The notes beneath the pieces are model-generated. The model was not told the origin of the DNA. It saw nothing but the letters and a program-made list of their open reading frames with translations, and did not search any database. Both the position numbers and the translations under genes were made by a program. Source: Chryseobacterium indicum (GTDB lineage Bacteria; Bacteroidota; Bacteroidia; Flavobacteriales; Weeksellaceae). From it: a DNA stretch of 64,000 bases. The stretch lies in NCBI RefSeq assembly GCF_021504595.1, contig NZ_JACSGT010000001.1, positions 1 through 64,000 of the forward strand, written 5' to 3'. This document shows positions 1,445 through 17,414 of the stretch, one piece after another (position 1 is the stretch's first letter; every line of letters begins with the position of its first letter).

Positions 1445-1849
1445 AAACTGTTGGCAATAGTCTTTTATTTGTTGTCTTACTTTTCTAAACTCCTCTTTAA
1501 TCTCTTCTTCTTTTCCGGTAACCTTTGCAGGATCTGGAAAGTTTTGATGAAATTTTTTTGCCTTGCTCGGAAAATAGGGACAACGTTCTTTTGCGTTGTC
1601 ACAAACTGTAATTACAAAATCAAACTCAATGTCGGAATATTCTTTAATATTATTTGAAGTGTGTTTTGAAATATCAATGTTATCTTCCTGCATTGTGGCA
1701 ACGGCTTTGGGGTTCACCCCGTGTGTTTCAACCCCTGCACTGTAAATATCTGCTTTATTATTTGCAAAATACCTCAGATATCCTTCTGCAATTTGGCTTC
1801 TGCAGCTATTGCCCGTGCAAAGCACCAGAATTTTCTTTCTATATGTCAT
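1427..1849 (-). CDS. arsC: Arsenate reductase, low-molecular-weight phosphatase type
   Basis: About 140 residues of the LMW tyrosine phosphatase-like ArsC family, which reduces arsenate to arsenite in the cytoplasm. The P-loop is C11-TGNSC-R17-S, counted from the ATG at 1849, and the late FPDPAK motif supplies the catalytic Asp. Further cysteines occur in TVCDNAKERCPYFP, consistent with a Cys-relay mechanism of the thioredoxin-dependent type. An ATG 12 bases upstream (1861) is an alternative start. It is the last gene of arsR - DUF6428 - arsC on this strand; the gap of about 120 bases to the DUF6428 gene suggests co-transcription. No ArsB or Acr3 exporter follows. Confidence 0.87.
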   Translation of the reverse strand: MTYRKKILVLCTGNSCRSQIAEGYLRYFANNKADIYSAGVETHGVNPKAVATMQEDNIDISKHTSNNIKEYSDIEFDFVITVCDNAKERCPYFPSKAKKFHQNFPDPAKVTGKEEEIKEEFRKVRQQIKDYCQQFVADNL

Positions 1850-1970
1850 ACGAATAACCAAATGATGTTTATGATGAAAAATTTCGGATCAAAACCGAAT
1901 ATGAGCTGTAACACAATAACCGAAGTTGTTATAATAATTGGCTTTTTGTGTTTTATGAAAAAAGATTTCA

Positions 1971-2507
1971 TCAGCAGCAAGCATTTTTGTCGGAACTTAC
2001 AGTTTCATCAACATTGGCGTTACAGCCGCAATTATTTTTAACGTTTTCCGATGAAACGGTACAGCAAGCCGATTGCGTTGTGAGATCAGATAAATTTACT
2101 TTTTGTTTTTCCTGCGGAATTCCGCATTTGTCATTTGCCAGACAAGCCGTTGTTTTGTTTTGCAAAATAAAATTTACCCCGTCAAAAGCCAGCCCGTATT
2201 TTCCGATTGTATTGCTTTGATATTCAACTTCAATTTCAGTATCCTCAATGTTCAATTGCTTTTCCGAAAGCTCGATGATGTTTAAAAGCTTTATGGGTTT
2301 CAAACGATGTTCGAGGTCGTTTGCATTCCACAACTGAAAGTTTACCATTTTTTCTTGGCGTATTGTTCCGCCGCAATCGATGAAGTTTTTAGTAACCATT
2401 CCGATTTCGGTAACGTGAAAATGTTCAGGAACGAAAGTTCCGTTTTCCAATTTAAACGTAACATTGTCTAATGTAGGCAAAAGTGCTTTTACTTGTGATA
2501 ATTTCAT
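1971..2507 (-). CDS. DUF6428 family protein of the arsenic operon, Cys-rich tail
   Basis: A 178-residue protein that I recognise as the DUF6428 type often found between arsR and arsC in Bacteroidota. The first 115 residues form a compact soluble domain (FVPEHFHVTEIG and KNFIDCGGTIRQEK are characteristic). The C-terminal third is rich in cysteine: single Cys in TACLANDKCG, then SACC, NCGCN and a terminal NACC. Such clustered cysteines could bind arsenite or another soft metal; this is inference. The biochemical role of the family is unknown to me. It follows arsR by 17 bases and is certainly in the same transcript. Confidence 0.75.
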   Translation of the reverse strand: MKLSQVKALLPTLDNVTFKLENGTFVPEHFHVTEIGMVTKNFIDCGGTIRQEKMVNFQLWNANDLEHRLKPIKLLNIIELSEKQLNIEDTEIEVEYQSNTIGKYGLAFDGVNFILQNKTTACLANDKCGIPQEKQKVNLSDLTTQSACCTVSSENVKNNCGCNANVDETVSSDKNACC

Positions 2508-2524
2508 TTTTATTTGTTTTTAGT

Positions 2525-2857
2525 TCAACAGCAGTTGTTTTTCTTGTTAGAAAGTTTTATTGAAATGTTGGCGAAATAATTTTGCAGCTTCTCGATAGCT
2601 TCTTCTTCAATGCAATAACAGATTGAATTTCCCTCAATGCTACCTTTTATCAGCCCTGCATTTTTGAGTTCTTTCAGGTGTTGTGAAACAGTAGGCTGTG
2701 CAAGTGGCAGTTCGTTTACAATATCACCACAAATACAAGTATCAACTTTCATTAAATATTCTATAATTGCCACCCTTGCAGGATGCCCCAACGCTTTTAA
2801 AAGTGTTGCAACCGTATTTTGTTGGTCTGTAAAATGGTCTGTTTTAGTTGCTCCCAT
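2525..2857 (-). CDS. arsR: ArsR/SmtB-family arsenic-responsive repressor
   Basis: A winged-helix repressor of about 110 residues. It carries the arsenite-sensing box DTCICGD (C41, C43), followed by the recognition helix [16 protein letters not shown] and the wing [11 protein letters not shown] further Cys pair closes the protein (NNCC). The frame could extend to an ATG at 2884, but that would place the start inside the palindromic operator at 2876-2895, so the ATG at 2857 is preferred. It heads the operon arsR - DUF6428 - arsC and should be autoregulated, with arsenite releasing it from DNA. Confidence 0.87.
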
Positions 2858-2875
2858 TTTTTTTTCTTTAATTTT

Positions 2876-2895
2876 ATATTGCAATATTACGATAT
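2876..2895 (-). promoter_or_regulatory. Likely ArsR operator
   Basis: The 20-base sequence ATATTGCAATATTACGATAT is an imperfect palindrome (16 of 20 positions match its own reverse complement). It lies 19 bases upstream of the chosen arsR start. The position and the AT-rich dyad with central AATATT fit autoregulation by ArsR. Confidence 0.6.
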
Positions 2896-2982
2896 AGATT
2901 TTAAACTTACAAACTTTTATTATCTTTCTTGTATGAATAAAGACAACCTATGTCACAATCCATGCTATCGTCATCTCAGCTA

Positions 2983-3314
2983 GTTCCAAACAAGGTTGTT
3001 TTAGATTTCCGGAGTACTCCGGAGATCTTGCGCAACTTGCGGGAAACCAAACACGGTCGCAGGAGATTCCAAACAAGGTTGTTTTACATTTCCGGAGTAC
3101 TCCGGAGGTCTTGCGCAACTTGCGGGAAACCAAATACGTTTGCAGGAGATTACAAACAGGGTTGTTTTAAACTTCCGGAGTACTCCGGAAGTCTTGCGCA
3201 ACTTGCGGGAAACCAAATACGGTCGCAGGAGTTTACAAACAGGGTTGTTTTACATTGCCTGCAAACGCAGGAAGTCTCGCGCAGTCTGCGGGAAACGAAA
3301 TGCATTTTCAGATT
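2983..3314. repeat. Four tandem 83-bp repeats with conserved hairpins
   Basis: Units occupy 2983-3065, 3066-3148, 3149-3231 and 3232-3314. Units 1-3 each contain the perfect 16-base palindrome TCCGGAGTACTCCGGA (3008-3023, 3091-3106, 3174-3189) and a second hairpin CGCAA-C-TTGCG (first at 3031-3041). Unit 4 is diverged, yet both hairpins are kept by different bases: CCTGC-AAAC-GCAGG at 3258-3271 and CGCAG-T-CTGCG at 3280-3290. The array fills the space between the arsR promoter and the end of the symE-like gene. It has no spacers and is not a CRISPR array. Confidence 0.85.
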
Positions 3315-3317
3315 ATG

Positions 3318-3497
3318 CTAGTTCGCAACAGTAATGGTGAGCTTCTTTTTCTTTTGCTGGATGTGTATAGTTTTTCCTTTTCCGAAACCCAGTTCATCAA
3401 GCCATTTTCCTCTGAGGCGGATTTCCGGAACGATAATAAGTTGATTGCTGCTTTTCTGAAATCTTGAATGGATTTTAAGTTTTCTTGAATTCATCAT
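3318..3497 (-). CDS. SymE-like toxin-family protein, copy 1
   Basis: A 59-residue protein starting MMNSRKLKIHSRF. The core PEIRLRGKWLDELGFGKGK followed by an alternating strand (LTITV) matches the SymE toxin domain, an AbrB/MazE-type fold. In E. coli, SymE is an SOS-induced toxin controlled by the antisense RNA SymR. The paralogue at 12458-12640 is about 70 percent identical, and homology continues upstream into the non-coding leader but stops at the start of each HTH array. An in-frame ATG far upstream (3608) is rejected because it would swallow the conserved leader. It is divergent from the HTH gene at 3805. Function here is inferred from the family only. Confidence 0.75.
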   Translation of the reverse strand: MMNSRKLKIHSRFQKSSNQLIIVPEIRLRGKWLDELGFGKGKTIHIQQKKKKLTITVAN

Positions 3498-3652
3498 GGT
3501 GTTTTTGTTATCTGATAAATTTGGTTTTTGGTTATTTGTTTTTACATTTTTCTGGCTGTACAGGAGGAAGCTGTAAAAATACCTGAACTTCCTGCCTATA
3601 CAAACCAAGGGTATATGATAAATTGTGTTTTTTATCTCTAAATAAGCAATTA
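3498..3652 (-). promoter_or_regulatory. Conserved 5' leader of SymE-like gene 1
   Basis: This stretch of about 155 bases is nearly identical to 12641-12793 upstream of the second symE-like gene, at least as well conserved as the coding part. Read on the minus strand it contains AGGAAG...CTTCCT, able to form a stem with a 17-base loop, in both copies. On the plus strand a TAAATTTG box at 3516-3523 matches the Bacteroidota -7 consensus and would drive an RNA antisense to the leader. Both the hairpin and the antisense promoter are conserved between copies. Confidence 0.5.
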
Positions 3653-3738
3653 TTTGTTTATTAATTTTTGGCGATTCTATATCAGAATCTTTTTAGTATT
3701 CTGAATAATAATCTTTTTCAAATATACGAAATTTACTA

Positions 3739-3804
3739 TTTGTTATAAGTTCTTGTAACAAAATTTATAAAAAAAATTACGCCCTTTGTGTAAACTGCTT
3801 ACAA
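3739..3804 (+). promoter_or_regulatory. Two candidate operators upstream of HTH array 1
   Basis: TTTGTTA-N10-TAACAAA at 3739-3762 is an exact inverted repeat. A second dyad, TTGTGTAAACTGCTTACAA at 3786-3804, abuts the ATG at 3805. Xre-type regulators usually bind such dyads near their own promoter, so autoregulation is likely. The rest of 3653-3738 is AT-rich with nothing I recognise. Confidence 0.45.
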
Positions 3805-4038
3805 ATGGACGTTTTACAAGATGAAATACTAAAAAAATTTGGAGAACACGTTAAAAATTTAAGGCTCAAATCTGGGCTTACGCAAGATGATGTTGTTCTT
3901 AACAGCTCCAAAATTACTAAAGCTACAATAAGTGATATAGAAAATGGAAAAAGAAACTTTGCATTTACTACATTAATTGATTTGGCGAAAGGTCTGAATG
4001 TACCGCCTAAAGATTTATTAGATATTAATTTTGATTAA
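3805..4038 (+). CDS. Xre-family HTH protein, array 1 gene 1
   Basis: A 77-residue protein that is essentially one Cro/C1-type helix-turn-helix domain: FGEHVKNLRLKSGLTQDDVV, then ITKATISDIENGKRNF and TLIDLAKGLNVPPKDLLDINFD. There is no effector domain, so it should act as a small DNA-binding regulator. It is the first of four such genes in the same orientation with gaps of 37-54 bases and is divergent from the SymE-like gene. A palindrome touches its start codon. Confidence 0.8.
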   Translation: MDVLQDEILKKFGEHVKNLRLKSGLTQDDVVLNSSKITKATISDIENGKRNFAFTTLIDLAKGLNVPPKDLLDINFD

Positions 4039-4075
4039 AAAAAGTTGGAAGCTTTGAATAACTACGTCAACATTT

Positions 4076-4363
4076 ATGCATGATTCTTTAGACGAAATGG
4101 AACGATATATAATTTCAAAGGTGAAAGAAATAAGAGAACAACGAGGGATTAGTCAAACTTCTCTTTCTTTGGCTATCGGCAAGAGTACGAGCTATATTTC
4201 AGACATTGAAGCACATTCCAAAACCGCTAAATATAATATTAAAAGTTTAAACTTAATATCAAAAGCTTTGGGTTGCTCTCCCAAAGACTTTTGGCCTGAA
4301 CAGCCAATTTTAGAGGATAAATATGAGTTTGTAAGAGAAATCGAAATAAAGAGAAAATCTTAA
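4076..4363 (+). CDS. Xre-family HTH protein, array 1 gene 2
   Basis: A 95-residue single-domain Cro/C1-type HTH protein (IISKVKEIREQRGISQTSLSLAIGKS, then YISDIEA and LNLISKALGCSPKDFWPEQP) with a short charged tail. It is clearly paralogous to the gene at 13003-13284: both start M-x-x-SLDE-x-ER and share ISxIEAxSKxAKYN. This pairing of families across the two arrays shows that the arrays are related modules. It probably lies in one transcript with 3805 and 4406. Confidence 0.8.
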   Translation: MHDSLDEMERYIISKVKEIREQRGISQTSLSLAIGKSTSYISDIEAHSKTAKYNIKSLNLISKALGCSPKDFWPEQPILEDKYEFVREIEIKRKS

Positions 4364-4405
4364 CAACAGCATTAAATTTCAAAATTGCTGTTAATTCTAA
4401 AAATA

Positions 4406-4666
4406 ATGGATAGCAAAGACGTTTTAAAATTGTATATGAAGAGTTTTTCTGAACATCTCAAGGAGATTAGGAAGGAGAAATACAATTCTATGGACGCTGT
4501 TGCTGAAAATTCCGTTTTCGATTCCAGTAATTATAATAAGTTTGAAAACGGTAAAGGAAATCCAACCATTGAAACTATTCTTAAAATGGCTTCAGCCTTT
4601 AAAATTCCGCCAAAAGAATTATTCGATTTTGACTTTGATATAGAAAAATATAAAATTGATGAATAA
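4406..4666 (+). CDS. Xre-family HTH protein, array 1 gene 3
   Basis: An 86-residue HTH protein from the ATG at 4406 (an in-frame ATG at 4385 adds seven residues of poor quality). The HTH core is FSEHLKEIRKEKYNSMDAVAEN, followed by SSNYNKFENGKGNPTIETILKMASAFKIPPKE. Its last 17 residues (KELFDFDFDIEKYKIDE) are identical to those of the gene at 13708-13959, so this is another family shared by both arrays. A dyad (TTAACAACAGCA ... TGCTGTTAA) lies just upstream around 4361-4395 and could be an operator or weak terminator. Confidence 0.78.
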   Translation: MDSKDVLKLYMKSFSEHLKEIRKEKYNSMDAVAENSVFDSSNYNKFENGKGNPTIETILKMASAFKIPPKELFDFDFDIEKYKIDE

Positions 4667-4720
4667 ATTCTGAGAACAGATGGAAACTTTCTAAATCACA
4701 ACGTTAACATTTACAATGGA

Positions 4721-4945
4721 ATGGATAGAATTGAATTTCGGATAGCTTTTGGGAAAAGAATTGAAAAATTTAGAAAAAAATTGGGATTAAGCTATCGGGA
4801 ATTAGCTCAAAAATGCGATGTCGACCATAGTAATATCAGCAAAATTGAAAAAGGAGAAGTTGATGTTAGAATTTCTACCATACAGGAATTAGCGAAAGGC
4901 TTAGAAGTACATCCGCAAGAATTGTTTGATTTTGAAGTAGGGTAG
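4721..4945 (+). CDS. Xre-family HTH protein, array 1 gene 4
   Basis: A 74-residue Cro/C1-type HTH domain (AFGKRIEKFRKKLGLSYRELAQKC, then DHSNISKIEKGEVDVRISTIQELAKGLEVHPQELFDF). It is the last gene of the array. The sequence before its ATG, AACGTTAACATTTA, resembles that before gene 2 (ACGTCAACATTTA), hinting at a repeated control site. No effector domain is present. Confidence 0.78.
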   Translation: MDRIEFRIAFGKRIEKFRKKLGLSYRELAQKCDVDHSNISKIEKGEVDVRISTIQELAKGLEVHPQELFDFEVG

Positions 4946-4995
4946 AGGTTTTGAGGGGAGGAAGAGGTTTTTAGCTAATAGAATAACGTTTTTGG

Positions 4996-5113
4996 GTTTG
5001 GCAGGTGGAGGCTAGAAGGGACTAAAGCTCAAATTTAGTACAAGTACTAATAAAAATACAAATGTTCAGTCTATCACTAAAGCCCGCTTTTGTCAATACC
5101 CTTGTTGGGCGTT
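4996..5113. other. Possible cassette-boundary recombination sequence
   Basis: Just beyond the stop codon of the S41 protease gene lies GCCCGCTTTTGTCAATACCC then TTGTTGGGCG, containing GTTGGGC (5104-5110) facing GCCC (5081-5084). A hairpin TTAGTAC-AA-GTACTAA occurs at 5035-5050 and ACTAAAGC is repeated at 5021 and 5076. The style is like attC-type sites and like multi-copy boundary sequences I recall in flavobacterial genomes, but a full attC with both core sites is not visible. Confidence 0.3.
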
Positions 5114-5116
5114 CGT

Positions 5117-6559
5117 TCATTTATTCTCTTCAATTATTTTTATTACATAATCCATTTGTCTGTCAAATTTTGTTTTTAAGTCATTTGGTTTTATTTGTAT
5201 TTCAATATCTGGTTTTATTCCTTTTGGGTCATATTGAAAATTGGGTGTCTTCATTTTGTATTGAAAAGTGGGTATCCAAACTAATGTTTTTGAATAAGGC
5301 AAAACAAAGGCTTGCCCACCTGAATTACTATAATTACTTCCTTGCGAATATTCACCGTAAAATTTTCCAATTTTATATTCTCTCATTAGTGCTAATAAAT
5401 GTCCTGTGGTTGAAAAACATCCACCATTAATTAGAACACTTATTTTACCTTTATAATAATTTGGTTTGTTCTGCTGTTGTTCAAACCACCAATAATCCGC
5501 AGCATCTGTTGCTGTATAGCAATTCAGTTCGTATTTTTGTTTTGTTTCGTTCAAATTTATTTCCTCAATATTTTCAGGATATTGAGCAAAGTGTTTCCAT
5601 TCTTTTACCGTATTATATTTTGCTCCCACATAGTCAAAATAGTAAAATGTTTTATCTGTCAGGTATGAAAAAAGGTAGTTTGCCATTTCTGCTGCTCCAC
5701 CACTATTATCTCGTAAATCAATTATTAAATTTCTAGTTTTTAAACTTTCTAACTGTATAAAAAAATCATCTAATTGTTTTTCTGCAATTTTTCTATCTTT
5801 TTCATTATAGCCATTTTCAAATGAATGAAATTTTAGAATTGCCAAATTATTAGTTCTAAATTCAGTTGTTAAAGGTTCAATTTTTTCAGAAATGTTTTGG
5901 GTATGGGTTTCAAAAGTTATTCCGTTGAATTTTTGTTTTTTCTTATGATTATTTTGGTCTAAATATTCTATTTCAAATTGGTTGGTTTGATTTAAAACAA
6001 AATAGTAAAAAGGGAAGTTTTTGAATCGAGTATTCAATCCTGTTTCATTTCTGCCTTCAAGGTGAATAAATTTTTCAATCTCTTTCACTACAGATTTTAT
6101 CTCTTTTCCATTTATTTTTAACACTTGCAAACCAATAAAATCTTTGTTGGTATCTGTGGTTTTACCTAAATAATAATTGTCATTAATCTTATAAATACTG
6201 AATGGAAATACTAATCTTTCTTTAAGCAAAGAAATAATTTGAGCTCTATCAACTGCTGTATGTCCGTCTTTAATTTTTGCCATTAAAGTTGCTGTCAATT
6301 TGTAATATTCAATAATAGATAAATCTGTTTTGATGCTCTTTTTTAATGATAAATAAGTTTTGTTAAATTCATTTTTTGTACAGAACATAAACTGTCCTGG
6401 ATGGATAGTATTTGTCAAATTATAAAGTTCAGAAAATTCAACAAGGATGCTGTCTTTTTTCAATGTTTTATCAAACAATAGATTTTCTGTCTTTGTGTTT
6501 TGTGCAAAAACAGAATTAATTATAAAAAATAGTAAAGGCAGTAATAATTTTAAATTCAT
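5117..6559 (-). CDS. S41-family (C-terminal processing-like) serine peptidase, exported
   Basis: A 480-residue protein with a signal peptide (MNLKLLLPLLFFIINSVFAQ). The C-terminal half is an S41 peptidase/tail-protease domain: RNLIIDLRDNSGGAAEMANYL is the typical core, and INGGCFSTTGHLLALM carries the nucleophile Ser. GEYSQGSNYSNSGGQAFVLPYSK matches the later conserved block. No PDZ domain is evident, so it resembles the periplasmic or secreted S41 proteins common in Bacteroidota. The natural substrate cannot be told. A possible cassette boundary follows its stop, and a SMI1/KNR4 gene lies 47 bases upstream on the same strand. Confidence 0.82.
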   Translation of the reverse strand: MNLKLLLPLLFFIINSVFAQNTKTENLLFDKTLKKDSILVEFSELYNLTNTIHPGQFMFCTKNEFNKTYLSLKKSIKTDLSIIEYYKLTATLMAKIKDGHTAVDRAQIISLLKERLVFPFSIYKINDNYYLGKTTDTNKDFIGLQVLKINGKEIKSVVKEIEKFIHLEGRNETGLNTRFKNFPFYYFVLNQTNQFEIEYLDQNNHKKKQKFNGITFETHTQNISEKIEPLTTEFRTNNLAILKFHSFENGYNEKDRKIAEKQLDDFFIQLESLKTRNLIIDLRDNSGGAAEMANYLFSYLTDKTFYYFDYVGAKYNTVKEWKHFAQYPENIEEINLNETKQKYELNCYTATDAADYWWFEQQQNKPNYYKGKISVLINGGCFSTTGHLLALMREYKIGKFYGEYSQGSNYSNSGGQAFVLPYSKTLVWIPTFQYKMKTPNFQYDPKGIKPDIEIQIKPNDLKTKFDRQMDYVIKIIEENK

Positions 6560-6606
6560 CGTTTTTTTTCTTTATAATACGGTCTTTTTTGAATGACATC
6601 TGGTTT

Positions 6607-7110
6607 TTATTCTCCCCATTCTACTGTGTCAAATGGTTCAAAATCTCTTTCCACAAAAGGTTCTGTCAAGATGCCTGTCGAACATAGCCAAGTTATCATT
6701 TCGTCTAATGTTTTTCCAATTTTGTAAATTTTTTCGCTATGTCTTGGTAAAATATAATAGTAGCTTTTATAAAGTATGAGTTCATCCCCGTCAAATGTGT
6801 CGCCAACCCGTACTGAATTTAATACTTCATGTTTTGTCAAAATGTCTTTCCCCTCGTCCCAAAACCAATACTCCGTTATTCTGTTTTTCCATTTTGATAA
6901 TGTATTCATAATCCTTTTCGGTAAGTACATTCTTATATAGGTTCCACCAAGAATTCCATTACCAAATGTCAAAACATAATCTTTATAATCGTCATCAAAT
7001 TCTATAGCTAAAGTTTTTTCACATAGTTCGATTTCTTGTTCTGTAGCTAAGAACAGGTCTGTTTTATTGGTATTATAATTTGGTATAATGCTGTAATTTT
7101 CAAAATTCAT
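6607..7110 (-). CDS. SMI1/KNR4-family protein (possible immunity protein)
   Basis: A 167-residue soluble protein. The N-terminal part, ATEQEIELCEKTLAIEFDDDYKDYVLTFGNGILGG, is the characteristic opening of the SMI1/KNR4 (SUKH) fold. In bacteria SUKH proteins are often immunity proteins against nuclease or other polymorphic toxins, but many stand alone. No toxin gene is adjacent here, so this may be an orphan immunity gene. It lies upstream of the S41 gene on the same strand and next to a MITE-like element. Confidence 0.7.
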   Translation of the reverse strand: MNFENYSIIPNYNTNKTDLFLATEQEIELCEKTLAIEFDDDYKDYVLTFGNGILGGTYIRMYLPKRIMNTLSKWKNRITEYWFWDEGKDILTKHEVLNSVRVGDTFDGDELILYKSYYYILPRHSEKIYKIGKTLDEMITWLCSTGILTEPFVERDFEPFDTVEWGE

Positions 7111-7182
7111 ATTTGTCAGCTATATTTTTATTTGTTTACTTTATTAAATTCTGTAACATAGTCAAAACCAAGACCGATGTCC

Positions 7183-7301
7183 GATGTCGCGGATTTGTAA
7201 TCCGTGATTTAAATTTTCATATTCTGAAACTATAGAGTGCAAATTTTTTGCGAAGGATTTTTTTTGTAGGTAAACGTAACGGATTGCAAATCCGCGACAT
7301 C
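7183..7301. repeat. MITE-like element with about 21-bp terminal inverted repeats (best copy)
   Basis: The left end GATGTCGCGGATTTGTAATCC and the right end GGATTGCAAATCCGCGACATC are inverted complements with one mismatch. Each end is itself a small palindrome (GGATTTGTAATCC). The 119-bp element has no coding capacity. Related copies lie at 13965-14079 (complete), 1367-1444 (left end) and 11373-11411 (right end). Confidence 0.75.
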
Positions 7302-7318
7302 TGATAACTTTTCATTCC

Positions 7319-7759
7319 TCAATTTATACCTCTCGGTAGTACAATTGTCTCAAGTAATTTCAATGCATCTTCAATAATGAGTGGGCTTGTACTTTCTTTA
7401 GGTTTCCAATCTTTTTGAAGAAAATATCTGGTGAGTTCTTCTATAACGGCAGGACGATTTAAATTGATGTCAATCGTTTGTTGCTGATCATGTAAATACG
7501 GCTCATTTTTAGATAACCAAATCACTCCATCATCAGGATAACCTACACACCATTTTTCTTTTTCAATATCCGTTTTGATAGTTAAATTATCTTCTTCTCT
7601 AAATAATAGTTGAAGAGGTGAGTCTTTGTATCCTTCAAGATAAATTACAACTTTTTCAACGCATTTAGAATGCTTGAATTCTGTCAAATGAAGATGATTC
7701 CTCTTCCATAAATAGGTCTCATTCTCTATTTTTATTTTTCTTAATTTATTTTTTGCCAT
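7319..7759 (-). CDS. Hypothetical soluble protein
   Basis: A 146-residue protein of unknown family. It has a basic N-terminus (MAKNKLRKIKIENETYLWKR), a motif WCVGYPDDGVIWLSKNEPY, and a closing helical part (RPAVIEELTRYFLQKDWKPKES). There is no signal peptide or membrane segment. Its position beside a SMI1/KNR4 gene and its size would suit an immunity or accessory-island protein, but this is only context. A MITE-like element abuts its stop codon. Confidence 0.6.
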   Translation of the reverse strand: MAKNKLRKIKIENETYLWKRNHLHLTEFKHSKCVEKVVIYLEGYKDSPLQLLFREEDNLTIKTDIEKEKWCVGYPDDGVIWLSKNEPYLHDQQQTIDINLNRPAVIEELTRYFLQKDWKPKESTSPLIIEDALKLLETIVLPRGIN

Positions 7760-7842
7760 TCGATGAATCGGCTTTGTTTCGGATTAAATTTTAGTCTCAG
7801 AGCTTCAATTGTTGCAAGGCTCTCATCTTCAACAAATCAATT

Positions 7843-8922
7843 CTAGCTCCCATAGTTTTCTTTCAGCTTTCTCATCAAAAGTCTCACGCCCTGTTGTGTA
7901 TCGGGATTAAAAGAGTTGGTTAAAATAATATATGCTTTGTTCTTTAATCTGTCGATATGAACAAGGCTGTAATACGTTCCTGCTGTACCGGAATGGGTAG
8001 AAAGCTCCTTTCCGTTCTCGTAAATGTTAAACCATCCCATCGAATAATTCGGAATTCCTTTGTGGATAAAAGTATACGTTTTGGCTTTCAGGTAATTGTT
8101 TTTTCCTTCAAGCCCCTGAATATTAAGCTGAATGAATTTGATGTAATCTTTCAGTTTTATATTGATATCTCCCGAAGGTTCTGTATAATCCAGATGATAA
8201 TCAAATGTGGAAGGAACAGGCTGTAGTTTGCCATCTTCAGTAAAATGTCCCCAAGTGTCTTTCTGCTTCTGATTTTCCGGCCATGATAATTGTACGTTTA
8301 GCTTTAAATCTTTATTGAAGACCAGATCAACAAGCTGTTCCCAGCTTTTGCCCGTTACTTTTTCTGCCATTAATGTTGCCAGAGTATATCCTGCATTGGA
8401 ATAGATAAACGGATGCTGTTCGTCTGTCTTTACAGGTTCTAACGTCAGTACAAACTCTCCGAACTGTTTTCTTTTTTCCTGATGCGTTCCTTTAAAATCC
8501 GGAATTTTGGGATCGTCTTCTCCCTGAAACGGCTGAATTCCTGCTTTATGAGAAAGGAGATCCTGTAAGGTAATATTGGCGTATCCGGGTTTGCTTTTCG
8601 GCTTCCATTCGGGAAATAAATCGAAAAATTTAGTCGTCCATTTTAATTTTCCGTTTTCAACATATTTGGCAATGATAAATGCAGTCATTGCTTTGGTATT
8701 GGAACCGATATGAAATCTGTCGTTTAAAGTTGCCGTGTCCGGAAGATCAACAGCGTGTTTTCCTAATGCCGCAATTTCCAGTGTAGATTTGCTGTCGATG
8801 ACTGCGTAGCTTATTTCCGGAATGCGATAAGCTCTCCGGATTGAATCCGCAAAATGAACGGTTTTCTGCCCAAAACAGATAATTGACAGTATTAAGAACA
8901 GGAGGGAGGTTATTTTTTTCAT
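7843..8922 (-). CDS. Serine hydrolase, class C beta-lactamase/DD-peptidase fold, exported
   Basis: A 359-residue protein with a signal peptide ending FGQ. The SxxK motif is S74-NTK77, the second motif is Y174-SN, and HSGTAG near residue 317 replaces the KTG triad element. These mark the beta-lactamase-related (PF00144) family, which includes esterases, DD-peptidases and peptide hydrolases. Whether it acts on cell-wall peptides, esters or beta-lactams cannot be told from sequence. It appears monocistronic. Confidence 0.85.
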   Translation of the reverse strand: MKKITSLLFLILSIICFGQKTVHFADSIRRAYRIPEISYAVIDSKSTLEIAALGKHAVDLPDTATLNDRFHIGSNTKAMTAFIIAKYVENGKLKWTTKFFDLFPEWKPKSKPGYANITLQDLLSHKAGIQPFQGEDDPKIPDFKGTHQEKRKQFGEFVLTLEPVKTDEQHPFIYSNAGYTLATLMAEKVTGKSWEQLVDLVFNKDLKLNVQLSWPENQKQKDTWGHFTEDGKLQPVPSTFDYHLDYTEPSGDINIKLKDYIKFIQLNIQGLEGKNNYLKAKTYTFIHKGIPNYSMGWFNIYENGKELSTHSGTAGTYYSLVHIDRLKNKAYIILTNSFNPDTQQGVRLLMRKLKENYGS

Positions 8923-8987
8923 CGGTTTTTTGCTGTAACATCATTATATTTTTGTAACACGCAGGCAAATTTTAACACTTTGGAAAT

Positions 8988-11162
8988 CTATTCTTTTTCA
9001 TTGTTTTCAATTTCGTCTTTTTGTTCTGATATTTTTTGTCCACAATATGGACAAAATTTATGAAGTTTTTCTAATTGGCTGAAACAAGTGCTGCACAGGA
9101 TTACCTTATCAAAAACCTGTTTAATTTTGTTTGTAGTTCGAACTGTGTATGCAGTTGGAATTTCTTTTAAGAAACTCGATTCATTTCCCTTTTGAGTAAT
9201 TAAAAAAAGCTTTTCTTTGGCTCTGGTAATAGCAACATAAAATAGACGTCTTTCTTCTTCCATAAGCAGATCGTGATTTGCTTGTTTTATCACTTGGAAA
9301 ATCCTGTCTTCAAGCCAAATATCCGGAAATCCACCATTGCCTTCCGTTAAACCAATAATGAAAACAACTTTTGCTTCAAGTCCTTTGGATGCATGTATTG
9401 TCTTACTCTGAACACGAATATTTTCATTTTTAAATCTGAAAAAATAAGGCGTAAACATCTTACTTCGTCTGTACAGAAATAAAATTTCATCATTGTTTAT
9501 CCCGTCTTCTAACAGCTCTTTTACTTTATCTGTACAAAATTGCAGATTTTCATCTTCTGTATTTCCTGCGAAAACAACGATCTTATGTTCGGATTTTTTT
9601 GATGCCTGAACGTCTTTTTCTACCTTAAATTTGTTGTGTTTAATAACTTCGTTGCTTGCACCAACAATATTTTGTGTGCTACGATAATTTAGATTGAGTT
9701 TTATTGTTTTTGCATTTGCAAAGTGTTTTTCAAATTCTACAATATAGCTCACATTTGATCCTCTGAAACCGTAAATACTCTGCCAATCATCACCAACGCA
9801 GAATAACTGGGTATTGTCGGTAAGTAATAATTTAATAAGCTCTACTTGTAAATTGTTTACGTCTTGAAACTCATCAACCAAAATATATTGAAATTTTCCT
9901 TTGTATTTGTTTGCTATATCTTCGTGATTTTGAAACAATGAAGCTGTTCGTGAAATTAAATCGTTAAAGTCAAGGTAAGATTTGTTTGTACAATAATGAA
10001 TATATTTTTTCACAATGGGAATTGCCAACTCATAAAAAAAGCGTACACGTTCGTGTTGATCTTTCCCAGCGTTTTCTGAAACTTTATCTATGCAGATGTT
10101 TTCAACCTTTATCATATCCGTAATTCTTAAGATTTGTAGAATAAAATCTTTCACGTTTTCATGATAGCCATTAAATTCTTCTTTAAAGTTTATGGAAATA
10201 TTTTGGTGATAATCTGATGGTAAACGATTTTTAACAATTTTGTCGAGCGTGTGATTGAACAAAGCAGAATCTTTTGTCATACTTTCAAAAGTCCTGATTA
10301 GCAAAAGATTTCCTATTTTAAACTGTTCTTCTTTATCTTTTGTTGAGTAACTTTTATTGCTAACGTGCTCAAGGTAAAGATTTGCATTCGGGATATAAAA
10401 ATCAGGAGTAAAAGTAAAATCTTTAATGTTTAGCAAAGGTTCATATTCGAATTTTATGCTGTGGCGATAAAACCAATCTGCAATAAATTGTTCTGATTTC
10501 GAACGTACTTTTGTTCCGTTAAGTGTAGTAAAATATTTCCCGTCTTTGGGTATATATTTAGGATCTATTTGTTTTAAATGGATTTTGTCTATGATATAAT
10601 CCAGAATATAGCGTTTTAGCTTTAACAGGTATTCTGTGTTTTCACATTCGTCTATCAGTAATTTATGCATTACTTCAAAAGCCGTTTCGGGAGCAATGTG
10701 TTTTGAAAGTTCACTCTCGTCGTCGCGCTTTTCGTCTCCTATTATTTTGAATTTGTTATCAAACTCATTTACACCATAATTACGTAAAACACTGTAACAG
10801 AAGCTATGAAAAGTTTTAATGGTAAGTCCGTCGATCCAGGTGTATTTCTTCTGTTGTAAAAATCTTTCTTTTTCTTTGTCTGCAATACTTTTTTGCTTGT
10901 CAAAAAGTTGTTTCTCGTATTCACCACTTTCGTCTGCAGAAATGATAAGCCGGTCAATCATCTCATTTGTTGCGTTTTTTGTAAAAGTAATCGCAAGAAT
11001 ACCGGAAGGATTCACATTTTTTTCTTCAATTAAGTAAATGAGTTTTTGCAAAAGTGTTTTGGTCTTTCCTGAACCTGCTCCTGCAAGAACTAAAAGTCTC
11101 TTATCTTCGCTAATAACAGCATCTTGCTGTTTCTCATTTAAAGCACTTAAATTTGTTTTCAC
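8988..11162 (-). CDS. UvrD/Rep-type helicase with inserted nuclease-like domain and C-terminal zinc ribbon
   Basis: A 724-residue superfamily 1A DNA helicase. Visible motifs are Walker A AGAGSGKT (27-34), TFTKNAT (Ia), LDFNDLI, Walker B VDEFQD (429-433), GDDWQSIYGFRG (III), LNYRST (IV), IHASKGLEAKVVFI (V) and ERRLFYVAITRAKEKL (VI). Residues about 215-295 carry VRSKSEQFIADWF, IKFEYEP, TPDFYIP and LYLEH, a PD-(D/E)XK-like insertion as in helicase IV (HelD). Near the C-terminus CSTC...CPYC forms a zinc ribbon. Likely roles are recombination repair or defence against foreign DNA. It stands alone between accessory genes. Confidence 0.85.
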   Translation of the reverse strand: MKTNLSALNEKQQDAVISEDKRLLVLAGAGSGKTKTLLQKLIYLIEEKNVNPSGILAITFTKNATNEMIDRLIISADESGEYEKQLFDKQKSIADKEKERFLQQKKYTWIDGLTIKTFHSFCYSVLRNYGVNEFDNKFKIIGDEKRDDESELSKHIAPETAFEVMHKLLIDECENTEYLLKLKRYILDYIIDKIHLKQIDPKYIPKDGKYFTTLNGTKVRSKSEQFIADWFYRHSIKFEYEPLLNIKDFTFTPDFYIPNANLYLEHVSNKSYSTKDKEEQFKIGNLLLIRTFESMTKDSALFNHTLDKIVKNRLPSDYHQNISINFKEEFNGYHENVKDFILQILRITDMIKVENICIDKVSENAGKDQHERVRFFYELAIPIVKKYIHYCTNKSYLDFNDLISRTASLFQNHEDIANKYKGKFQYILVDEFQDVNNLQVELIKLLLTDNTQLFCVGDDWQSIYGFRGSNVSYIVEFEKHFANAKTIKLNLNYRSTQNIVGASNEVIKHNKFKVEKDVQASKKSEHKIVVFAGNTEDENLQFCTDKVKELLEDGINNDEILFLYRRSKMFTPYFFRFKNENIRVQSKTIHASKGLEAKVVFIIGLTEGNGGFPDIWLEDRIFQVIKQANHDLLMEEERRLFYVAITRAKEKLFLITQKGNESSFLKEIPTAYTVRTTNKIKQVFDKVILCSTCFSQLEKLHKFCPYCGQKISEQKDEIENNEKE

Positions 11163-11372
11163 TTTTTTGTTTTTAGTTTTTTATTGATTATCGCCTTATT
11201 TATAACGGTTCTTTATATTCCCGAACTTCAAGCGAGCTGCAATAGTTTAAATATAGTAAAAAAGTTTAATAAAATCGGTATAGTGTATTTGTAATCTGAT
11301 TAATTTCAGGACTTATAGTAAAGTGAAAAATATTCTGATATTAGTTTTTAGGTATTTTTACGATCGAGGTTC

Positions 11373-11411
11373 TTGGGTAGGGAAATGTCACAGATTTCAA
11401 ATCCGCTGCAT
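11373..11411. repeat. Right-end fragment of the MITE-like element
   Basis: The block GGGTAGGGAAATGTCACAG and the following ATTTCAAATCCGCTGCATC match the right end of the copy at 13965-14079 (GGTAGGGAATGTCACGGATT...). No left end is clear. The rest of 11163-11372 holds nothing recognised. Confidence 0.5.
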
Positions 11412-11431
11412 CTTTTTAAATTTTAATAAAG

Positions 11432-12331
11432 TTATTCTCTTTTTCTGCTAATGATTTCTTCAAGTCCGGGTTTACAGGTTAATAAATGCCATCCGCCAAA
11501 AACAATAAATATTCTGTCGTTGCTGTCTAATAATTTATCAACGGTACTTAGTAAAAACTGGTCGCGTATTTCTTTGGATTTTCTTCCGATTTCCTGAAAT
11601 TTCCCCACTGGTTCAAAGGGATTCGTAGGTTCAAGTTCCAAAATGTCGAAAGGACGTTTCAACAGCTGCTCATAACCGGATTTATAGAAACTGAACGTCT
11701 GTTCGGACTTGGATAATGCTACACCGCCTTTTTTAATGATATAGTTTTCTATAAATGTATTGTATCTTTTTTCTATTTCGCGGAGGTCTGTAATGTGCTG
11801 TCCTTTAAGTCCCCACATAAGGCGTTCTGTAATGATGTACGCCAAGAATTCTTTTTTAGAATAGCTTTTAAGTAATTCTTTAAACTCGAAAGAAACTGGC
11901 GGATCTCCGTCAACTGTTTTTATTTTTAAACTGTCACTCAGTATTTTAGTTAATCCAATTTCGCCATCTTTTAATAAGGCATCCTGTTTAGAAGTATAAA
12001 TTTTCTTTGAGATGTCGCCTCCTTCATTAATGGCAATATTGGGTATGAAAGCAAAAAATTTCTGTTCAATTTCTGCAAACATTGGATTTTCAATATCCGA
12101 ATCGTCTGTGAGATGAGCTACACCGCAAAACACCACTGTTTTTTTACCGTTTGTAAATTCCAGAATGTACGGATTGGAAGGTAGTTGTTTGTTAGAATCC
12201 AGCTTTATGTCGAGATAACTTGTTGTAGGATAAGCAGGCGCAATATCGTCACCTGTTTTTTTATTGAGATTTGAAGCGCTGCAACTTACAAGCAACACAG
12301 AAATAAAAATGCAGATCAAGAGATGTTTCAT
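11432..12331 (-). CDS. Lipoprotein with TraB/GumN-like (Tiki-type) domain
   Basis: A 299-residue protein with a lipoprotein signal (VLLVSCSAS; Cys near residue 17), so it should be membrane-anchored outside the cytoplasm. The motifs VVFCGVAHLTDDSD near the N-terminus and RIFIVFGGWHLLTCKPGLEEII near the C-terminus resemble the paired GxxH blocks of the TraB/PrgY/GumN superfamily, whose members include metal-dependent proteases. AINEGG may supply the acidic residue between them. Family assignment is by motif only. It is alone on its strand, upstream of the second SymE-like gene. Confidence 0.55.
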   Translation of the reverse strand: MKHLLICIFISVLLVSCSASNLNKKTGDDIAPAYPTTSYLDIKLDSNKQLPSNPYILEFTNGKKTVVFCGVAHLTDDSDIENPMFAEIEQKFFAFIPNIAINEGGDISKKIYTSKQDALLKDGEIGLTKILSDSLKIKTVDGDPPVSFEFKELLKSYSKKEFLAYIITERLMWGLKGQHITDLREIEKRYNTFIENYIIKKGGVALSKSEQTFSFYKSGYEQLLKRPFDILELEPTNPFEPVGKFQEIGRKSKEIRDQFLLSTVDKLLDSNDRIFIVFGGWHLLTCKPGLEEIISRKRE

Positions 12332-12457
12332 AGTGGTTTTAATTCATTGCGGCTGACTTTCAAATTTACACATTCGTAGATTGTATGCATACACAAACCA
12401 TTGTTTTTCTTCACGTCTTTTTTAGAAAGTTAATAATTTTGTAGATATTACGATGAT

Positions 12458-12640
12458 TTATAATTTATCCACCGTAATGATAATTTTGTTTTTCTTCTGC
12501 TGAATATTCACCATTTTTCCTTCTCCGAAGCCTATTTCATCAAGCCATTTTCCTCTGAGGCGGATTTCCGGAACGATAATGAGTTTGTTGCTGCTTTTCT
12601 GAAATCTTGAATAAATTTTAAGTTTTCTTGAATTCATCAT
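12458..12640 (-). CDS. SymE-like toxin-family protein, copy 2
   Basis: A 60-residue paralogue of the gene at 3318-3497. It shares MMNSRKLKI-x-SRFQKSSN, then LIIVPEIRLRGKWLDE and the GFG-x-GK turn, with divergence only in the last strands. The SymE domain belongs to the AbrB/MazE-like fold. It is divergent from a second HTH array starting at 13003. The conserved unit is therefore SymE-like gene plus leader, with Xre genes reading away from it. No 83-bp repeats follow this copy. Confidence 0.75.
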   Translation of the reverse strand: MMNSRKLKIYSRFQKSSNKLIIVPEIRLRGKWLDEIGFGEGKMVNIQQKKNKIIITVDKL

Positions 12641-12793
12641 GTTGTTTTTGTTATCTGATAAATTTGGTTTTTGGTTATTTGTCTTTAAATTTTTTCTGGC
12701 TGTACAGGAGGAAGTTTTAAAAATGCCTGAACTTCCTGCCTATACAAACCAAGGGTATATGATAAATTGTGTTTTTAATCTCTAAATAAGCAA
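12641..12793 (-). promoter_or_regulatory. Conserved 5' leader of SymE-like gene 2
   Basis: Nearly identical to 3498-3652, with few substitutions. The stem AGGAAGT...ACTTCCT is kept, and in this copy it is one pair longer. The plus-strand TAAATTTG box is also kept. Similarity ends abruptly after AAATAAGCAATT in both copies. Confidence 0.5.
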
Positions 12794-12920
12794 TTTTTTA
12801 CGCCATATTTTCAATTTCTTTTGTTGTCTTGTATACTAAAAATTACCAGTTTTCGAATCGAGATTCTAAGCAATAGCTTTTATATTCTTTGAAGTATCGC
12901 AAAGGTATTTTTAGCGTAAC

Positions 12921-12969
12921 TTGTTTTACAAATATAAAACAATTCTTGAAATATGTACTATAGTACATA
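12921..12969 (+). promoter_or_regulatory. Two palindromic operator candidates upstream of HTH array 2
   Basis: TTGTTTTA-N6-TAAAACAA (12921-12942) is an exact 8-bp inverted repeat. TATGTACTATAGTACATA (12952-12969) is a perfect 18-base palindrome. Both lie within 85 bases of the first HTH start (13003), the expected place for binding by Xre-type dimers. The sequences differ from those of array 1. Confidence 0.5.
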
Positions 12970-13002
12970 ATTTTTTTTAATGTTTTTCATTCACTTTGAC
13001 TT

Positions 13003-13284
13003 ATGAATGAATCATTAGACGAAATAGAAAGATTTGTTATAAAACGTATAAAAGAAATACGTGAAACAAAAGGTATTACCCAAGAAGAGTTATCTCTTTC
13101 GATTGGTAAGAACATAGGATTCATTTCACAAATTGAAGCACCTTCTAAAAAAGCTAAATATAACTTAATTCATTTAAATTTAATCGCCATTGCATTAGGT
13201 TGTTCTATTAAAGATTTCTTTCCCAATGAACCAATTAAAGAGACGAAATACGATATTAAAGAAATTAAAACGAATAAGTCCTGA
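13003..13284 (+). CDS. Xre-family HTH protein, array 2 gene 1
   Basis: A 93-residue Cro/C1-type HTH protein (VIKRIKEIRETKGITQEELSLSIGKN, then FISQIEAPSKKAKYN). It is a clear paralogue of the gene at 4076-4363. Its stop codon overlaps the start of the next gene (TGATG at 13282-13286), so translation of the two is coupled. Two palindromes lie just upstream. Confidence 0.8.
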   Translation: MNESLDEIERFVIKRIKEIRETKGITQEELSLSIGKNIGFISQIEAPSKKAKYNLIHLNLIAIALGCSIKDFFPNEPIKETKYDIKEIKTNKS

Positions 13285-13630
13285 TGAAGTTTGAAAATTT
13301 TAAAAAGTCTAAAATTTATCCCATGTATAAATGGGAGATTGAAGAATTAAAATTCCAAATTGGTAAGCTTATTCAATTGCATAGGTTAAAGAGAAGTCTT
13401 TCACAGTTCCAACTTGGAAATGAACTTAATCTATCAAGTAATCATGTTGGTAGAATTGAGCGAGCCGAAACTAATCCAACAATAGAAAACCTTGTTAAAT
13501 TCTGCAATTTTTTGAAATTGATATGTTATTTTTATTTGCTAAGCTAACTGATAAAGAATTGAAGGATATTGAAAGTGAGATTGAATACCTACAAAAAGAA
13601 TTTAAAAATAAAAATAAAACAAAATCCTAA
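13284..13630 (+). pseudogene. Xre-family HTH protein with a likely frameshift in a T tract
   Basis: The open frame runs 13284-13547 and gives an HTH domain (IGKLIQLHRLKRSLSQFQLGNEL, then NHVGRIERAETNPTIENLVKFCNF) followed by an odd hydrophobic end. One base inserted in the T6 run near 13512-13517 restores a sensible C-terminus: FEIDMLFLFAKL, then TDKELKDIESEIEYLQKEF and a Lys-rich end stopping at 13630. The repaired protein would have about 115 residues with a coiled-coil tail. It is either a recent frameshift, a phase-variable gene or a sequencing error. Confidence 0.65.
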
Positions 13631-13707
13631 CGAGAGTTGGGATTTGCTTTTATTATACCAATAATATTTATTTTTATAAATGCAATTTAATTGAAAACAT
13701 AGTATTA

Positions 13708-13959
13708 ATGGATTTTCACAAAGACCTGCAAATTTTGATAGGAAAGCGTATTTCTGAAATTAGAATGAAAAATAACCAAACTCAACAAGATTTGGAATTT
13801 TTAACAGGTATTGATTCGGCAGAAGTAAGTAAATATGAAAAAGGAAAAAGAAATCTAACTTTGAAAACTATGATAAAGTTTGCCGTAGCATTACAAATTC
13901 ATCCAAAAGAATTATTTGATTTTGACTTTGATATAGAAAAGTATAAAATTGATGAGTAA
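13708..13959 (+). CDS. Xre-family HTH protein, array 2 last gene
   Basis: An 83-residue single-domain HTH protein (LIGKRISEIRMKNNQTQQDLEFLTGI, then DSAEVSKYEKGKRNLTLKTMIKFA). The C-terminal end PKELFDFDFDIEKYKIDE is identical to that of the gene at 4406-4666, although the rest has diverged. The sharply conserved tail suggests a functional contact, for example with a partner protein, or recent recombination. A MITE-like element starts six bases after the stop. Confidence 0.78.
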   Translation: MDFHKDLQILIGKRISEIRMKNNQTQQDLEFLTGIDSAEVSKYEKGKRNLTLKTMIKFAVALQIHPKELFDFDFDIEKYKIDE

Positions 13960-13964
13960 ACCTC

Positions 13965-14079
13965 GATATCGTAGATTTGCAATCCGTGATTTAAATTTTT
14001 ATATTGTATAAGCGTAGATTGGAAATTTTTTGAATGAGGATTTGGTAGGGAATGTCACGGATTATAAATCCGCGCTGTC
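13965..14079. repeat. MITE-like element, second complete copy
   Basis: The left end GATATCGTAGATTTGCAATCC and the right end GGATTATAAATCCGCGCTGTC are imperfect inverted complements. The internal blocks GTGATTTAAATTT and AAATTTTTTG match the copy at 7183-7301. It separates the last HTH gene from the membrane protein gene at 14102. Confidence 0.65.
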
Positions 14080-14101
14080 AGGTTAGCTTGTGAGGTTATT
14101 T

Positions 14102-14932
14102 TTAAAGTGTTTTTACGTCATTTATATTATTTTCTTCAATCCAATTCAAATATTCTTGACCCAAGTTTGTTATATGTATCTTTTCATCGTTTTTAACAAT
14201 TAAAATATTAGAAAATAGATAAACTAAATATTTTTTCACATCCCAACCAGAAAATGAATTTGCAAATTCATCTTTTACATTTTCAAAGTAATCTTCGATT
14301 TCTTTTTTAGTAAAGCCTTCAGGTGCAATTAAATTTAATTCATGTAAAAGATTTAATTGACTTCCAAATATATACTTATGTATTCGCTCGAACCCTAATA
14401 GTAATTGAGTTCCAGCTAAATGTCTTATTAATACGGTTGATGTTTCAGAAGTTGTATCTAACCCTTTAGTAATCAATGTGGTTTTTATGTTTTTTTCCAT
14501 AGATTCAATTACAATTGAGTTTCCAATTTGATCAAGTAATTCTTGGACATTCTTTTCGTTGTCTATTTTCTTTTGTTTATTAGGTCTCTCTGTATAATAA
14601 TCTCCAAAAACATTCGTACTAGATTGTTTCTGTTCATTACTTGTTATTGAGATTAGTTGGTTTATTAATTGTGCGTTTTTCTTTTCTAATTTTTCATTTT
14701 CATTTTTAGATTCTTCAAGTTTTCTGCTTATTGTAAGATATTTACCTATTGAAAAATTATCGAATGATTCACTTAGAATGATAATTAGTATAATAGCAAT
14801 TAGTATTAGATTATTATTTTTTAACACTCCAATTGGCTCAACAAAAATAAAATTATAACCAATCATTAATGCCAATAAAAAAGCAAAAAATGCTATTAAA
14901 AATCTTGAAAAAGTTGAATGCTTTCTCTCCAT
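14102..14932 (-). CDS. Membrane-anchored coiled-coil protein of unknown function
   Basis: A 276-residue protein with two membrane segments (about residues 9-30 and 40-58). A coiled coil follows (KLEESKNENEKLEKKNAQLINQ with continuing heptads). The C-terminal cytoplasmic part of about 160 residues ends in a winged-helix-like segment (KKYLVYLFSNILIVKNDEKIHITNLGQEYLNW). I do not recognise a named family. The layout, a membrane anchor with a soluble sensor or effector domain in an accessory region, is common among stress or defence proteins, but no function can be assigned. Confidence 0.65.
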   Translation of the reverse strand: MERKHSTFSRFLIAFFAFLLALMIGYNFIFVEPIGVLKNNNLILIAIILIIILSESFDNFSIGKYLTISRKLEESKNENEKLEKKNAQLINQLISITSNEQKQSSTNVFGDYYTERPNKQKKIDNEKNVQELLDQIGNSIVIESMEKNIKTTLITKGLDTTSETSTVLIRHLAGTQLLLGFERIHKYIFGSQLNLLHELNLIAPEGFTKKEIEDYFENVKDEFANSFSGWDVKKYLVYLFSNILIVKNDEKIHITNLGQEYLNWIEENNINDVKTL

Positions 14933-15017
14933 AAAATTTTATTAAAGACATTCTATCCTATATCTAAATTTACACATATCAATATTAACAATATCACAAA
15001 CTAATGTAACAAAAAGT

Positions 15018-15712: not shown

Positions 15713-17414
<1,702 letters not shown>

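Follow-up and report, generated by a model that had tools for sequence, protein, structure and literature searches.

The first 64 kb of contig NZ_JACSGT010000001.1 of Chryseobacterium indicum (contig C1 of a 4.84 Mb genome; these 64,000 nucleotides (nt) are called the window below) contain two modules in which a short symE gene lies divergent from a run of tiny Xre genes. Sequence comparisons within the genus and the phylum make it probable that symE is the output of a two-promoter switch with an exchangeable, proximal Xre-operator cassette. In this switch, the nearest divergent single-domain Xre protein would bind a palindrome characteristic of its family, located over the -33 region of the symE promoter. 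The bound protein would keep symE off and probably also control its own gene. Xre gene, operator and promoter would be exchanged as one cassette by recombination while the effector stays, and an incoming cassette would leave the older Xre genes behind without operators, which would explain the arrays of tiny Xre genes. Members of the same Xre families appear to serve further effectors, namely a helical protein of 174 amino acids (aa) and, judged by RNA context, SusC-type TonB receptors. The modules usually seem to include a pseudoknotted leader RNA of about 280 nt, and selection may favour different repressors among the modules of one cell. The sequences show the association, the orientation, the family-specific palindromes (with a constant position in many families), the reassortment and the RNA covariation; from these features we infer binding, repression and a history of displacement.

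Association of symE with divergent Xre genes

The two symE genes of the window encode 59 aa (copy 1, 3318-3497) and 60 aa (copy 2, 12458-12640), both on the minus strand with an ATG start. Their products reach 37.8 and 35.6 bits against the Pfam family SymE_toxin PF08845 (curated cut-off 29 bits) and thus belong to the SymE family, while they stay below the NCBIfam cut-off of 132 for the E. coli-type SymE equivalog NF010128, with 20.8 and 27.9 bits. The copies are 82% identical as proteins, and symE plus leader are common to both modules (3328-3655 versus 12471-12799, 87-88% identical over approximately 330 nt). The duplicated layout described in the initial annotation, i.e. symE on the minus strand, a conserved leader and a divergent run of single-domain Xre genes, is real at both loci, and all seven small genes match the helix-turn-helix (HTH) family HTH_3 above its cut-off. 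Speaking of two loci is correct for the window, but genome-wide there are four close symE copies, two of them at the other contig end (C1:3234669 and C1:3239196), and one distant copy. Chryseobacterium sp. ZHDP1 (G059), which like C. gambrini and C. mucoviscidosis is close to this genome, has five symE matches, one of them with stops, in the same orientation within about 27 kb, and its gene order suggests that all four close copies belong to one tandem region beside groES-groEL. Each of the five symE copies in the C. indicum genome has a divergent Xre gene, and 10 of the 34 HTH_3 matches of this genome are located at these loci; hence, the tie exceeds chance already within one genome.

Matches to symE were found in 65 of 148 genomes of the genus and in 17 of 345 genomes of the phylum. 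The initial annotation had proposed to score how often symE lies close to divergent Xre genes, and this check bears the association out: among 111 symE places (de-duplicated by sequence, as were the places of the 174-aa gene), 93 are accompanied by a divergent Xre-type gene at a distance of up to 700 base pairs (bp); it is a small Xre in 54 cases and a member of a 134-140-aa HTH family in 39. Sixteen places lack a divergent Xre, at least four of them being fragments or cut by the locus end, and two have one only farther away. Some lower-scoring symE matches (e.g. L122, L129, L139) were missed by the profile and lie outside the 111, and the counts are non-independent, as many loci are related by descent. 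An Xre gene in another orientation within about 1.5 kb was seen at none of the 111 symE places; a rescan lists two symE and two 174-aa rows with another Xre nearby. The same rescan, confined to loci that extend 700 bp or more upstream and to distances of up to 1.2 kb, found a divergent Xre at 91 of 104 symE loci and 57 of 61 loci of the 174-aa gene. A second SymE lineage of the genus (L083, L087, L089 and similar loci) is paired with the 134-140-aa HTH family.

The tie between symE and Xre genes is real and, in outline, already known, so that the remark in the initial annotation that this was not a familiar system does not hold when taken strictly. Kawano, Aravind and Storz (2007; PMC1891008), in the part of their paper available to us, report a SymE family protein next to a Cro/cI-type HTH gene and propose the displacement of one regulator by another. 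Both the neighbourhood and the idea of displacement resemble the present case; however, the genes there form operons and the family is nearly confined to Proteobacteria, whereas here the Xre genes are divergent, occur in Bacteroidota, are sometimes stacked, have family-specific palindromes and are common to another effector. In Serratia sp. ATCC 39006, the 'SymE/XRE-HTH' pairs (PMC7725324) also consist of symE beside an HTH_3 gene and are duplicated in a genomic island, but the accessible portion of that report contains nothing on operators, exchange, a second effector or a leader RNA. E. coli SymE/SymR has the SymE protein family and a tight control of symE in common with our modules; according to the same partly available source (PMC1891008), this control involves LexA, the antisense RNA SymR and Lon, whereas control by a divergent Xre repressor has the best support in our modules. 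The SymE proteins studied here should be regarded as putative toxins, because a SymE-like protein of M. tuberculosis behaved as an antitoxin in a bench test, as stated in the accessible part of the TASmania paper.

We recognised no description of this module in the open-access literature on Xre genes together with SymE or SusC and on structured leader RNAs. As far as that literature goes, what is new is the operator-repressor cassette that can be exchanged, the second effector that has Xre families in common with symE, the leader RNA with its phylum-wide occurrence and the near-exclusivity of repressors. A further parallel is offered by prophage immunity regions, in which a repressor and its operator diversify and are swapped together ahead of conserved genes. 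The exchange of a repressor-operator unit is alike in both cases, but our modules contain no phage genes and have symE, the 174-aa gene or TonB receptors as effectors.

Putative operators at a fixed promoter position

In the first module, the symE-proximal gene xreA (3805-4038, plus strand) encodes an HTH_3 protein with up to 91% identity to an Xre beside the 174-aa gene. Its putative operator is a near-palindrome at 3739-3762 with two mismatches to the family palindrome, centred 24.5 nt from the putative -7 box TATATTTG of the symE1 promoter (3719-3726, minus strand). In the second module, the proximal gene xre2a (13003-13284, plus strand; HTH_19 and HTH_3, cluster 5) is accompanied by the putative operator TGTACTATAGTACA at 12954-12967, again centred 24.5 nt from the putative -7 box of the symE2 promoter (12929-12936, minus strand). 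The boxes were assigned by what we take to be the Bacteroidota promoter consensus. Both window modules therefore combine an Xre-type HTH with a palindrome over the target promoter, as is typical for Xre/HTH_3 repressors. The palindrome TGTACTATAGTACA is also present in one family of the genome G132.

When family palindromes were set against Xre families, with both effectors included, the resulting matrix was nearly diagonal. The XreG palindrome is present at 15 of 16 loci of its own family (11 with the 174-aa gene, four with symE), the XreD palindrome at 14 of 14 (12 and two, respectively) and the XreA palindrome at six of six (four and two), and none of the three occurs in another family. The XreB/2a palindrome was detected at eight of nine loci and the XreC palindrome at three of three. 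The position of the operator provides evidence that is independent of this diagonal, which is affected by descent: in nine of 13 families, the palindrome centre lies mostly 24-25 nt before the -7 box (range 23-27, with a few loci lacking a box). In a test of 25 RNA-module families that requires no choice of palindrome, the mean pairing peaks at offsets 24 (0.458, z = 3.7) and 25 (0.499, z = 4.8) over a background of 0.316 (standard deviation 0.038), the next highest of the 61 offsets being 42 (0.397), and 11 of the 25 families reach a pairing of 0.75 at 23-26 nt. Palindromes of single loci were mostly weak when compared to first-order shuffles; the position test across families is clearer.

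Within the window, an operator scan that tolerated up to three mismatches for 18-mers and up to two for 14-mers found only the XreA and Xre2a operators; at 20937, there is one match with three mismatches to a palindrome of another family. Likewise, at L042 only the operators of its two symE-proximal Xre genes were found, and at L043 none, the 69-aa palindrome being outside that scan. The palindromes of the XreB, XreC (GGTAATATATTACC), XreD, Xre2b and Xre2c families were absent from the scans of the window, L042 and L043.

Probable cassette exchange and stacked Xre genes

Comparison with close relatives reveals what such an exchange may look like. ZHDP1 locus L035 is 96.8% identical to the window through symE and 97.3-97.8% identical from xreA through the cargo genes, but leader and promoter between symE and xreA are replaced by another Xre gene with its own promoter. 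In C. gambrini (L031), another Xre gene and a repeat element lie between symE and leader-xreA. Homology breaks near the symE start codon at L031, L032, L035, L037 and the first copy of L042.

On a broader scale, eight of 57 loci of the 174-aa gene agree in Xre family with their closest effector relative, compared to 6.1 by shuffling; the mean identity between effectors is somewhat higher if their Xre family is the same (76% versus 68%). Genome G105 contains three effectors with 96.5-98.3% identity beside three different Xre families. As judged by these comparisons, regulator and effector are reassorted. Among 74 modules in 26 genomes, none of the 80 within-genome pairs has a common Xre family at a threshold of 50% (expected 4.8, P = 0.005, shuffling that ignores phylogeny); at 65%, the expectation is 3.6 (P = 0.023). 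Where a genome had several matches, the loci were taken from the best ones listed, and one locus of the C. indicum genome was added; six of the 80 fetched loci had been dropped, four without a divergent open reading frame (ORF) and two without the RNA core motif. The reassortment speaks against fixed orthologous loci as the sole cause of this exclusivity.

The distal Xre genes of the window, all on the plus strand and matching HTH_3, encode proteins that are 76-98% identical to effector-proximal Xre at other loci. XreB (4076-4363) is 97% identical to the proximal Xre of L169 and XreC (4406-4666, ATG at 4406) 98% identical to a symE-proximal Xre of C. gambrini (L029). XreD (4721-4945) shows up to 95% identity (L209) to the proximal Xre of 12 loci with the 174-aa gene and two symE loci. 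In the second array, Xre2b (13284-13547) is 76-92% identical over 66-81 aa to the proximal Xre of cluster 8, with the best likeness at L149 (92% over 66 aa), and is apparently broken, as it ends earlier than its relatives; Xre2c (13708-13959) shares 98% identity with the Xre next to symE at ZHDP1 locus L030. The initial annotation had seen two HTH families shared between the arrays. This applies to the genes at 4076 and 13003, which belong to one family (cluster 5; the product of the latter is approximately 61% identical to XreB-type proteins), but not to those at 4406 and 13708, which belong to clusters 12 and 7. As these two clusters differ and only a 131-nt 3' end (79% identical) is common to both genes, their likeness is that of a shared end and not of one HTH family.

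The arrays give the impression of displaced repressors that have piled up, and not of layered control, because only proximal operators are found in the window, while each Xre of the window has relatives in effector-proximal position at other loci. Stacking is not confined to the window: among 150 effector loci, many of which are short, at least 23 have two or more divergent Xre genes within 2.2 kb.

A second effector and a structured leader RNA

The leader precedes not only symE but also the 174-aa gene. A leader search in 146 genomes of the genus gave matches in 52, some of them short stretches only, and of 30 leader loci inspected, nine carry symE and 21 carry instead a gene for about 174 aa, which is not intact in a few. 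Divergent to these 174-aa genes lie Xre genes of types A, B, D, G, 2b and 2c and of one further type. The proximal Xre proteins of both effectors form 22 clusters, some with truncated copies, and seven clusters contain both effectors. The 174-aa family occurs in 100 of the 146 genomes, with up to 10 matches in one genome among the matches listed, and a protein search returned 352 relatives, the named ones among the 120 listed being hypothetical Chryseobacterium proteins. No curated family matches the protein, Pfam yielded nothing under E = 0.02, and the best solved relative (E = 0.14) is not convincing; four such proteins compared with PADLOC gave one weak match (E = 0.019), which does not assign them to a known anti-phage system. 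Its AlphaFold model is all-helical, with a mean predicted local distance difference test score (pLDDT) of 77.8.

The start motif of the approximately 280-nt leader RNA was found at 50 loci of the 174-aa gene and at three symE loci, the third being a remnant in the window. Three of these 53 leaders lack the 3' motif, 47 of the remaining 50 were aligned (88% mean column identity), and 36 distinct cores of the 47 entered the model. In the predicted structure with a crossing helix, 96.2% of the cells are paired, compared to 37-44% when the structure is slid along the alignment; for the core, the values are 97.2% and 29-46%. These numbers refer to a pseudoknotted structure that was drawn by eye on, and counted in, one alignment and is thus fitted to these sequences. 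Covariation of the core is 0.241 versus 0.088 (reached in none of 500 shuffles), and 10 pairs are changed on both sides versus 7.5 by shuffling. The structure proposed by RNAalifold itself was not adopted; it misses the long arm and has changes on both sides in three of 58 pairs. Rfam contains no family that matches the leader RNA in 17 loci (E ≤ 1), and none was found in window positions 1-20000 at gathering scores.

The RNA core model matches 129 of 146 genomes of the genus and 45 of 395 genomes of the phylum, covering 20 of 170 genera. Of 78 distinct RNA loci (one of 79 was dropped as a duplicate; mostly the best-scoring ones), 72 have a divergent Xre-type gene, which starts 121-147 nt from the core in 64 of them. 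These genes were called with a custom profile at a loose E-value, and Pfam agreed for most: 49 of 74 divergent ORFs match HTH_3 and 48 match HTH_26 (E ≤ 0.01). Downstream of the RNA, 34 of 43 other ORFs have a TonB plug domain, and one (L252) also matches the 174-aa profile. In Bacteroidota, the RNA core was seen with a divergent HTH gene on one side and often a SusC-type TonB receptor gene on the other (L275-L301, L253-L272). At weaker RNA matches in the C. indicum genome (L302 2802-2928, L303 2907-3043), the gene upstream is on the same strand, and the genes downstream encode secreted-looking proteins.

In the window, the terminal leader hairpin is kept at both copies (3552-3608, z = -5.4 versus 200 shuffles; 12696-12752, z = -3.6), while the remnant of the leader RNA is present at copy 2 only (12814-12874; R1 match with E = 0.0014, the middle of the model being mostly missing), all on the minus strand. 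The leader is not required, because an Xre cassette takes its place beside symE at five loci.

Weighing the proposed exchangeable switch

Several observations count against the proposed switch. In the phylum sample, only six of 17 symE places outside the genus have a divergent Xre, as opposed to 87 of the remaining 94. The palindromes were picked inside each family, so the diagonal partly reflects shared descent. The spacing does not fit in four of 13 families: it is 49-50 nt in the 72-aa family (20 loci, including a third symE of the C. indicum genome), 33 nt in cluster 9 and 37 nt in cluster 14, and the 69-aa family is mostly without a box. Moreover, 14 of the 25 families do not reach the pairing of 0.75, and the 134-aa HTH family of the second SymE lineage has no common palindrome (4/35). 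In the leader RNA, further pair types do not exceed shuffles, and the leader RNA also occurs apart from Xre genes, because two other, intact-length matches in the C. indicum genome have no divergent Xre. Two genomes each contain two symE modules of one Xre family (G074, L079 and L057; G232, L121 and L135). The distal XreB-D genes may be more than relics and still be useful, because they show eight changes at 144 synonymous but only eight at 621 non-synonymous sites (summed over genes) relative to ZHDP1. Finally, XreB and Xre2a belong to one family, and XreB might thus act on symE2. Our confidence is slightly reduced because the spacing fails in these four families and the tie is weak beyond the genus in the phylum sample.

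Other explanations have to be considered as well. By analogy with prophage superinfection immunity, distal Xre genes could be kept for anti-addiction or immunity, silencing incoming modules that use the matching operators. We regard this as unlikely but worth keeping in mind: the effector-proximal relatives of every window Xre, the exclusivity of proximal families within genomes and the low amino-acid change of distal Xre would all be expected, but exclusivity could equally reflect insulation of paralogues or loss by recombination, and the distal genes have no operators of their own.

Layered transcriptional control, suggested in the initial annotation, would mean that every Xre of an array acts jointly on the adjacent symE. 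That the distal Xre genes are mostly intact, with few amino-acid changes relative to ZHDP1, is compatible with this idea. It is nevertheless improbable, since the scans recovered the operator of the symE-proximal Xre but not the palindromes of XreB, XreC, XreD, Xre2b and Xre2c, and 126 of the 150 effector loci have a single divergent Xre within 2.2 kb, although many are short.

An arrangement of the type II toxin-antitoxin kind, with Xre as a protein antitoxin that binds SymE, is in our judgement also quite improbable. It could draw on Kawano et al. (PMC1891008), who in the accessible part of their paper view SymE-cHTH pairs in the light of HTH antitoxins, but near-identical SymE proteins are found beside different Xre families and the same Xre families beside an unrelated protein. 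Furthermore, toxin and antitoxin would be expected in one operon, and the Xre gene is divergent at the 93 positive symE places.

Even less can be said for a type I system, in which a SymR-like antisense RNA from symE or the leader would be the antitoxin and the Xre genes bystanders. E. coli SymE is under SymR control (PMC1891008, available part) and the leader is conserved between modules, but the Xre cassette replaces the leader next to symE at the five loci named above, and the leader also precedes an unrelated gene. That symE and Xre genes are just common accessory genes of one hotspot, united by chance or shared ancestry, is hardly credible, for despite the relatedness of many loci and the six of 17 places outside the genus, orientation is fixed, operator position is fixed in many families and a second effector has the same Xre families.

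Genomic setting of the modules

The two modules of the window lie between what are presumably arsenic-type genes, with a tyrosine integrase (458-1333), and genes that we take to be groES-groEL (15713-17713). The tyrosine integrase reached 208.6 bits against the integron integrase model, below the cut-off of 265, and an integron was therefore rejected. The genes between the copies had been regarded as accessory cargo, and this is in line with their content: an S41 peptidase, a SUKH-type protein, a beta-lactamase-fold protein and a UvrD helicase, which look unrelated to the modules. The SUKH/SMI1-KNR4-type protein is encoded at 6607-7110, and the UvrD-type helicase (8988-11162) matches Gabija GajB models. 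PADLOC gave HTH and UvrD-type matches in the window and none for symE at E ≤ 0.001.

Downstream of symE1 are 83-bp tandem repeats (2987-3301), which also accompany some other symE copies. They carry the palindrome TTCCGGAGTACTCCGGAA and occur in the same genome also at C1:3238959-3239059 and 1432536-1432635; two of the three sites are each downstream of a symE copy, and the remaining one lies elsewhere. Dispersed elements resembling repetitive extragenic palindromes (REP), with arms like GCGGATTTGTAATCCG, are located at 7182-7304, 1366-1434, 11370-11413 and 13964-14080; a similar REP-like element sits between symE and leader in L031. An ORF at 15018-15548 is built of 24-bp repeats (NPIYNHSI).

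Implications

Beyond Chryseobacterium, it is quite possible, and offered here tentatively, that a Bacteroidota-wide module exists in which an exchangeable Xre-operator cassette and a pseudoknotted leader RNA are combined with an interchangeable effector (SusC-type TonB receptor, 174-aa protein or SymE). Several such modules would be present per cell, as a rule each with its own repressor and thus with a private switch, and the Xre stacks of the window would be a record of, or immunity against, other modules. The proposed switch provides a testable rule, according to which the effector-adjacent repressor sets the switch and the repressor is exchangeable. It also links a supposed toxin family to surface-receptor genes via a structured RNA that has no Rfam match. 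If the modules of one cell tend to differ in their repressor, they would constitute a chromosomal counterpart of the immunity groups of prophages, and repressor-palindrome pairs without shared palindromes could serve as orthogonal switches in Bacteroidota.

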